DNA from: Clostridia bacterium
GTDB lineage: Bacteria; Bacillota; Sulfobacillia; SLMV01
DNA: 34,921 nucleotides
Direction of reading: 5' to 3'
Assembly (NCBI GenBank): GCA_003563985.1
Contig: PWSR01000050.1
Location: 1 to 34,921, forward strand
Part shown: positions 18,519-20,351 of the stretch, one piece after another
Layout: each line of letters starts with the position of its first letter
Numbering within the stretch: position 1 is the stretch's first letter
Position numbers and translations under genes: made by a program
The notes under the pieces: generated by a model
Told to the model about the DNA's origin: nothing
What the model saw: only the letters and a program-made list of their open reading frames with translations
The model's database searches: none

Positions 18519-20060
18519 CTACTGAGCGTATTCTATTGCCCTGGTTTGGCGAATGACCGTGACTTTTACCTGTCCCGGGTACTCCACCTGTTCCTCGATA
18601 CTCTTGACGATCTCCCGCGCCAGGGCGTAGGCCTCTAGATCGTCGATCTCATCGGGTTTGACCATGATCCGGATCTCCCGGCCCGCCTGGATGGCGTAAC
18701 TCTCCTCGACCCCCTGGAAGGAGTCGGCGATGCCCTCCAGCTTGGAAAGGCGTTGGATGTAGGCCTCCAGGGTCTCGCGCCGCGCGCCGGGGCGCGCCGC
18801 GGAAAGGGCGTCGGCCGCGGTGATTAGGACAGCCTCGACGCTTTCGGCTTCGTAGTCTCCGTGATGGGAACTCATCCCGGCGACGATCTCGTCCTTTTCG
18901 CCGTAGCGACGGAGGAGATCGCGGCCGATATCGACGTGCGTTCCCTGTATCTCGTGGTCAACCGCTTTTCCGATGTCGTGTAGCAAGCCCGCACGCCGGG
19001 CGACGTTTGTGCTCACACCCAGTTCCGAGGCCATGACACCGGCCAGATGACTCACTTCCATCGAGTGCTGCAAGACGTTCTGGCCGTAACTGGAACGGAA
19101 CTTCAGCCGCCCCAACAATTCCGTAAGGCGGGGATGCAAACCGTGCACCCCGGCGTCGTAAGCCGCCTGCTGGCCGGTCTCGCGAATCTGTTCTTCGATC
19201 TCGCGGCCCACCTTCTCGTACATCTCCTCGATTCTGGCGGGATGTATCCGTCCGTCTGCGACCAATTTCAACAACGTGAGTCGAGCCTTCTCGCGGCGAA
19301 TGGGGTCGAAGCCGGAGATAACCACGGCTTCCGGCGTATCGTCGATGATGAGGTCGACGCCCGCGAGGCTTTCAAAGGCGCGAATATTACGCCCCTCGCG
19401 ACCGATAATTCGACCTTTCATGTCGTCACTGGGCAGCTCCACCACGGATACGGTGCTATCGCTGACCTGATCGGCGGCACTTCGTTGGATCGCGAGGGAG
19501 ATGATCTCCCGGGCCTTCTTCTGGGCGGTTTCCCGGGCCTCGGTCTCGATGTCGCGAGCCAATATCGCTGCCTCGCGCCGAGCCGTCTTCTCGATCTTGG
19601 CCATGACTTCCGCCCTGGCCTCCTCCCGGGTGAGCCCCGCGATGCGCTCCATCTCTCGCACGTGCTCATCCAAGACCCTCTGTGCCTCTGCCTCGATCTC
19701 TTCCACTTTTTCTTGGCGGGCCTTCAGAGCGTTCTCTCGCTCATCAAGCCCCTCGAGACGACGTTGAAGGGATTCCTCTCGGTTGGCTAACCTTCGCTCT
19801 ATCTCCTGGAACTCGGTCCGGCGTTCGCGCACTTCGTCCTCGAACTCGGACCGCATGGCGTGAATTTCCTCTTTCGCCTGCAGCGCAGATTCCTTCTGCT
19901 TGCGCTCGGCCTCCTTGCTCGCATCGTTGAGGATGCGAACCGCTTCGCGCTCGGCGGAGCCGATCCGCGCTTCCGCGACGGACTTGCGCAAGAGAAAACC
20001 GACGATTAAACATATGATTCCTACGGCCGCTGCAACGGCGATCGCTTGCCCTAGGGTCAA
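18519..20060 (-). CDS. rny: Ribonuclease Y
   Basis: RNase Y is the membrane-anchored endoribonuclease that initiates mRNA turnover in many Gram-positive bacteria. The 513-residue product has an N-terminal membrane helix (about 4-24), a long charged coiled coil (about 30-165), a KH domain with [15 protein letters not shown], and an HD domain with [23 protein letters not shown] and SSHHGD. The TTG start at 20060 follows GGAGGTG by about 10 nt, and an in-frame TGA lies 6 bases upstream, so no longer start is possible. The gene stands 53 nt downstream of an intrinsic terminator, and I see no promoter in between. Its expression therefore seems to depend on read-through (see the structured RNA entry). 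Confidence 0.96.
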
Positions 20061-20113
20061 AGGTCACACACCTCCATCCTTGGGATGATGGCGTACCTGT
20101 TCTTGAATCAGAC

Positions 20114-20141
20114 AAAAAAAGCCGAGTCCATGGGACTCGGC
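20114..20141 (-). terminator. Rho-independent terminator ahead of rny
   Basis: Perfect stem GCCGAGTCC/GGACTCGGC (20121-20141) followed on the minus strand by seven T (20114-20120). It is a textbook intrinsic terminator, placed between the structured RNA and rny. Confidence 0.92.
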
Positions 20142-20315
20142 CTGTGAACCTACCACAGCGCGTACGGCTCGCACGTTCCCCCGTGGGGGCGAATCGGTTG
20201 TAATCCCCATTTACTCCTTAACGACCGCGGACCGGCTGTCCCGCCGATGTTGCTGGGCATTTTACCGAACATATCTAAAACCGTGCACCGGTAGAATTCA
20301 GAACAGGTGATTCCC
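20114..20315 (-). ncRNA. Structured small RNA or regulatory leader ahead of rny (unidentified class)
   Basis: A near-consensus promoter (20322-20351) should start a transcript near 20315 that ends at the terminator at 20114-20141, about 200 nt. Its two ends can pair in a long helix. On the minus strand CCUGU (20303-20307) pairs with ACAGG (20141-20145), GAAU-CUACC (20290-20299) pairs with GGUAG-GUUC (20146-20154), and the helix continues with GUGC/CGG against CCG/GCGC (about 20281-20288 with 20157-20168). The interior holds at least two further hairpins, including a C-rich/G-rich one near 20177-20190. Size and long closing helix are compatible with 6S RNA. The position 53 nt before rny, with no other promoter, is equally compatible with a terminating riboswitch-like leader. 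I recognise no known riboswitch core. Confidence 0.6.
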
Positions 20316-20321
20316 ACGCAA

Positions 20322-20351
20322 ATTTTATCGGTCATCGGTACCCGGTGTCAA
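20322..20351 (-). promoter_or_regulatory. Promoter of the structured RNA (and rny)
   Basis: Minus-strand TTGACA (20346-20351), 18-bp spacer, TAAAAT (20322-20327). The -35 is a perfect consensus and the -10 matches 5 of 6. It lies in the recX-rny intergenic region. Confidence 0.75.

Follow-up and report, generated by a model that had tools for sequence, protein, structure and literature searches.

A putative transcription attenuator in the mRNA leader of the RNase Y gene, conserved across families of Bacillota

The leader between recX and rny

We analysed a 34,921-nt stretch of DNA, referred to here as the window, in which recA, recX, and rny all lie on the minus strand. Since rny is on the minus strand, the element between recX and rny is read as the reverse complement of 20061-20351, and a fold of the plus strand of this region is irrelevant. 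A preliminary description had placed a structured RNA here with correct coordinates and a correct setting (rny is identified by TIGR03319, with recX and recA upstream). We found that the near-consensus sigma-70-type promoter of this element is the sole one in 600 nt, where 0.3 are expected from shuffles, and that the same TTGACA-N18-TAAAAT promoter is present in genomes G001 and G002. The predicted +1 lies at approximately 20315, and approximately 203 nt separate it from the end of the U-tract of an intrinsic terminator of the GCCGAG..CUCGGC type, which is kept across families. No promoter was found in the gap between the terminator and rny in the window, where the best site matches 6/12 positions, and none of 62 leaders has a promoter with at least 10/12 matches in this gap. 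Our data thus bear out the promoter, the strong terminator, and the lack of a promoter after it, as the preliminary description had claimed. The features of the locus, in the order in which they are transcribed, are the following.

20351..20322, minus strand: promoter, TTGACA (20351-20346), 18-nt spacer, TAAAAT (20327-20322); 11/12 matches
20303..20317, minus strand: P0 5' strand, the putative antiterminator strand, GUGGGA (20317-20312) and CCUGU (20307-20303)
20290..20296, minus strand: P1 5' strand UUCUACC; class and phylum consensus CUACCA; compensatory pair within the genus
20279..20284, minus strand: P2 5' strand ACGGUU
20271..20280, minus strand: UUUUAGAUAU, the window's form of the conserved AUAGAU motif; its G↓A is a candidate site for RNase Y
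20170..20270, minus strand: variable central domain with inner hairpins; compensatory changes at inner pairs within the genus
20164..20169, minus strand: P2 3' strand AGCCGU
20150..20154, minus strand: P1 3' strand GGUAG
20145-20141 and 20135-20130, minus strand: P0 3' strand, along with the terminator 5' arm (20143-20133)
20113..20143, minus strand: intrinsic terminator, AGGCCGAGTCC-CAT-GGACTCGGCTT plus T-tract; 5' arm 20143-20133, loop 20132-20130, 3' arm 20129-20119, U-tract to 20114
20095..20103, minus strand: AGAACAGGU, complementary to 5' ACCUGUUCU (20308-20300); genus level only
20075..20087, minus strand: small hairpin CAUCC/GGAUG abutting the Shine-Dalgarno sequence (SD); kept in two sister genomes
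20075-20071, minus strand: rny SD, GGAGG
18519..20060, minus strand: rny (RNase Y, 513 aa), UUG start at 20060; TIGR03319, 717 bits, E 7.6e-216

We found that the extreme 5' end of the leader is complementary to the 5' arm and loop of the terminator, a pairing (P0) absent from the preliminary description, in which GUGGGA and CCUGU find their partners UCCCAU and ACAGG in the terminator region. The long imperfect closing helix described earlier corresponds to P1 and P2, each with an ensemble probability of approximately 0.99 in the window RNA, and in G002 the 3' strand of P2 reads AACCGU in place of AGCCGU with the pairing retained. When the transcript was lengthened in the model, the probability of P0 (GGGA:UCCC) was 1.00 once the transcript reached the terminator loop, just before the 3' arm emerges, and fell to 0.00 as the terminator stem climbed to 0.96-1.00. 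These predictions suggest that the P0 and terminator folds are mutually exclusive and that the antiterminator can form first. At equilibrium the terminator form of the window RNA is more stable than the P0 form by 7.3 kcal/mol. Since the single-sequence folding energy of the leader is ordinary (z -0.72; 47/200 shuffles equally good), we relied on comparative evidence; folding z-scores from single sequences gave no discrimination.

Other pairings lie close to the gene. Ahead of the rny SD there is a 9-nt perfect complementarity between ACCUGUUCU and AGAACAGGU, which is kept in two sister genomes with one G-U pair in G002. A pairing of this type gave no class-wide signal when 5' segments and post-terminator segments were swapped between genomes (z -0.3), and it is therefore treated as a local feature only. 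The CCATC/GATGG pairing that had been noticed before the SD is present and is likewise kept in the two sister genomes; since it was seen in the genus only, and not as a general feature, we build no conclusion on it.

Covariation and distribution of the leader before rny

When divergent leaders were put into one multiple alignment, the consensus fold contained only the terminator, because the central domain is too variable, and so we compared own with swapped pairings instead. In this alignment-free test, the duplex energy of a genome's own 5' segment with its terminator arm is set against the energies obtained when partners are exchanged between genomes. Across 37 lineages of the window's class, the 5' 40 nt and the terminator 5' arm pair with -17.96 kcal/mol when both come from the same genome versus -14.00 kcal/mol when exchanged (z -8.5), and 0/20000 permutations were as good; L010, L017, L075, and L098, whose promoter or terminator calls were judged wrong by eye, were left out of this test. 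Control segments gave values near zero, both just upstream of the terminator (z -0.9) and downstream of it (z 0.3). Since the test was designed after the pairing had been seen by eye, it was repeated with the same definitions on held-out families. Among 35 families outside the class, P0 reached z -4.7 and P1 z -8.1, each with 0/20000 permutations as good. The covariation in relatives that the preliminary description had proposed to look for was thus found both inside and outside the class. These z values are not exact probabilities, as the lineages are related to differing degrees.

A heat map of segment pairs over 62 leaders, one per family, contained an antidiagonal ridge with z values down to -11.6. 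Positions 0-28 of the 5' end gave -8.4 with the terminator arm, positions 16-44 gave -11.6 with the 20 nt before the terminator, and positions 24-44 gave -10.7 with -28..-8, while the signal was weaker further in. The terminators of L211 and L213 were corrected manually, and the heat map excludes L213. Such a ridge is the signature of one long nested closing helix. When the terminator 3' arm was omitted, consensus folds contained the same closing helix, with compensatory changes, in 5/6 close clades; in the clade alignment of the window's genus, 7 pairs show compensatory changes.

Whether or not the element was present, we gathered rny upstream regions from the window's class (91) and from families or genera elsewhere in the phylum (60). 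A leader qualified under fixed rules if a promoter with a score of at least 10 was followed by a strong terminator ahead of the start codon. Qualifying leaders precede rny at 50/91 loci in the class and at 35/60 elsewhere in the phylum, compared to 0/30 among the recA upstream regions of the same relatives, which served as a control. Identity of the element itself is 86% and 79% in two sister genomes. Outside the class, a frequent pattern is GGGAGAAACUAG...CUACCA...CGGGUUU-UUAUAUAGAU...UGGUAG...ACCGAGUUUCUACUCGGUUUUU. We built a sequence-only profile from the 5' 53 positions of leaders outside the window's class, which matched 24/250 genomes with one match each, and all 24 matches lie just before the RNase Y gene; the training sequences come mostly from those 24 genomes, although several of the 24 were unused in training. 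This 5'-part profile misses the window's own divergent copy.

The terminator does not accompany rny everywhere. At the Bacilli loci examined, a strong promoter is followed by a long leader that lacks a terminator. In these Bacilli (L140-L142, L145, L147, L148, L151, L166, L203-L206) we observed a UGCCGAC-like stretch and a UAGCAA-type sequence before a GGAGGUGA SD, along with an AU-rich 5' part containing a GUAUAAUUUU-like sequence; the terminator-less leader is possibly a different, translational one. Rumen and gut Clostridia (L152, L159, L169, L182, L183) carry leaders whose 5' region contains a GCUGUUAUCGAUAGA-like sequence, with a long-loop terminator, GCCGUGCGAAGCG...CGCGCGGC, ahead of rny. 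Since UUCGGCUG in this 5' part is able to pair with the terminator's CAGCCG, the switch seems to reach these Clostridia as well. Outside Bacillota, the rny of L135, an actinobacterial Thermoleophilia MAG, has the same promoter-CCAUAGAU-terminator layout.

The start codons of rny form a separate observation. While the window's own rny starts with UUG, 57/151 rny genes have an in-frame AUU, AUC, or AUA suitably spaced from a strong upstream GGAGGU SD, with no AUG, GUG, or UUG there (loci L001-L034, L065-L122, L203-L262). Such starts are found in 34/60 genes outside the class and 23/91 inside it, compared to 0/30 for recA. In Escherichia coli, infC and pcnB are known to begin with rare codons of this type. 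In rny such codons could provide an extra translational feedback.

Known RNA classes and related systems

The preliminary description had recognised no known class in this element, and this stands, given that the Rfam search it had suggested returned no match. With the gathering score as threshold, Rfam 15 gave 0 matches in the window and 0 in 18 loci of the class, and among 20 loci of the phylum there was one off-target, sub-threshold match only; relaxed E-values gave chance matches only. The 5' UTR element of the RNase E gene, rne, is the Rfam family rne5, and the Rfam scan produced no match to the rny leader. 6S RNA (RF00013) is similar to the element in its size of approximately 200 nt, its long imperfect hairpin, and its own promoter and terminator, but the element fails the 6S model. 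No 6S match lies in the window, and the true 6S RNA of this genome (80.8 bits) is on another contig, at G000:C81:1-156; both 6S RNA and a second 6S copy were rejected as identities of the element. Leader-peptide attenuation was also rejected, as an SD-preceded short ORF was found in 6/62 leaders compared to 12.4 in shuffles, and none in the window. A search of open-access journal papers returned no description of a rny leader motif or terminator, and the rny switch appears to be undescribed so far.

Among the closest known systems is rny of Bacillus subtilis (PMC10303841), which is the same gene with a sigma-A promoter and a long (164-nt) leader. In B. subtilis, RNase Y reduces the amount of its own mRNA in part via cuts in the 5' UTR, the strongest of which fall mainly in the first 50 nt (PMC10303841). 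It differs in that this feedback acts through mRNA decay with RNase J1, and the paper makes no mention of a terminator, attenuation, or a conserved fold; the leaders of relatives examined among Bacilli have no terminator. A further parallel is the feedback of RNase E through the rne 5' UTR (cited in PMC10303841), which also involves a structured leader and a decay-initiating ribonuclease that senses its own level. The enzyme and the RNA are different, and the feedback concerns mRNA decay rather than a transcription terminator.

Autogenous and riboswitch-type attenuators share with the rny leader a mutually exclusive terminator and antiterminator formed via the terminator 5' arm and the lack of a later promoter. 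In contrast to them, the antiterminator strand of rny would lie at the very 5' terminus of the RNA, some 120-400 nt away, the whole leader is closed into one hairpin, and the sequence fits no described family.

A probable attenuator and its possible input

The rny leader has a terminator between promoter and gene with no later promoter and a conserved alternative pairing with the terminator arm, which are two of the marks of an attenuator. The switch is well supported by the promoter, the terminator, the lack of a later promoter, the covarying P0 and P1, and the exclusive link to rny. The preliminary description had offered read-through at an attenuator as one reading, and comparison across more than 60 families supports it. 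We consider an attenuator architecture very likely, and the most probable account overall is that the leader of the rny mRNA holds a cis-acting transcription attenuator, which would most likely sense RNase Y itself; this fuller account we regard as somewhat better than an even bet.

What the switch may respond to is suggested by a recurring motif. In unbiased k-mer counts over 69 leaders, the top k-mers were ATAGA (37 observed, 9.4 expected), ATAGAT (27 versus 3.6), and CTACCA (11 versus 0.7). AUAGAU usually lies approximately 35-55 nt from the promoter or 5' end, around position 45 counted from the -10 box and just 3' of the P2 5' strand; about half of the leaders lack it or carry a changed form. 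The favoured cleavage site of B. subtilis RNase Y is G↓A in AU-rich, unpaired RNA, with U at positions -2 and -3 (PMC11780869), and in its sequence the AUAGAU motif resembles such a site. Given this likeness and the autoregulation through the 5' UTR in B. subtilis, we infer RNase Y as the input, for which we see about an even chance.

In the attenuator that we propose, the P0 5' strand would act as an antiterminator by pairing with the loop of the terminator and its 5' arm, while P1 and P2 would draw the ends of the leader together. If P0 lasted while RNA polymerase passes the U-tract, rny would be transcribed; if P0 were lost, the terminator would form and an RNA of approximately 200 nt would be released. 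At low RNase Y the leader would stay intact, P0 would form, and rny would be read. Excess RNase Y may bind or cut the exposed AUAG↓AU in the nascent 5' part, thereby removing the antiterminator strand in favour of the terminator, so that surplus enzyme would reduce its own transcription. A ribonuclease-gated attenuator in the strict sense, in which cleavage by RNase Y at AUAG↓AU in the rny leader, soon after this site emerges, detaches the strand that disarms the terminator, is a tentative proposal that we hold to be possible though doubtful. Given that the terminator is ahead of P0 by 7.3 kcal/mol, read-through must be kinetic or assisted. A cut inside P1/P2 that have already formed leaves the 5' strand attached, and so cleavage would have to be early. 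Cutting during transcription is less easy to picture for an enzyme that, in B. subtilis, is bound to the membrane.

The input might instead be another protein or a general state, such as partner proteins of RNase Y, a cold-shock or ribosomal protein, pausing factors such as NusA, or temperature. The energies of the terminator and P0 are near enough for a bound factor to tip the balance, and a leader exclusive to rny carries no independent evidence on the identity of that factor. Nevertheless, the sole recurring single-stranded motif resembles an RNase Y site, and RNase Y autoregulation through the 5' UTR is known in B. subtilis, and we regard another input to a genuine attenuator as unlikely. 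A metabolite riboswitch, in which P1/P2 and the AUAGAU internal loop would form an aptamer and a small ligand would shift P0 versus the terminator, would account for the aptamer-like closing helix, the conserved internal-loop sequence, the terminator platform, and the wide distribution. We judge it quite improbable given that the link is to a single gene (rny in 24/24 profile matches) while metabolite riboswitches usually serve several genes of a pathway, that the conserved stretch outside the helices is short and varies, and that the central domain is very different between families.

The preliminary description had also considered a free RNA of about 6S size, and a stand-alone trans-acting sRNA, with rny expressed only by leak-through of the terminator, would agree with the strong promoter and terminator, the length of approximately 200 nt, and the single copy. 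This reading is disfavoured, since the genome's own 6S RNA sits elsewhere, the profile is found once per genome and always before rny, the position before rny is kept across the phylum, and the 5' end is conserved for pairing with the terminator arm, a pairing for which a free sRNA would have no use; we hold it to be very improbable. It is barely conceivable that there is no regulatory element at all, and that an ordinary recA-recX terminator lies beside an unrelated promoter with chance folding. While the unremarkable single-sequence folding energy would fit such a reading, the promoter precedes the terminator with none after it, and the swap tests and the recA control (0/30) contradict it.

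For the probable attenuator, a covarying terminator switch dedicated to rny, present in dozens of families of Bacillota and outside Rfam, would form a new cis-regulatory RNA class. The defined site and the defined pairing offer a means to ask whether a ribonuclease controls its own transcription by cutting the nascent leader. If true, ribonuclease gating would link the decay of mRNA with the termination of transcription in a large part of Bacillota. Our data suggest that many Bacillota would set the level of a main mRNA-decay enzyme by stopping transcription early.
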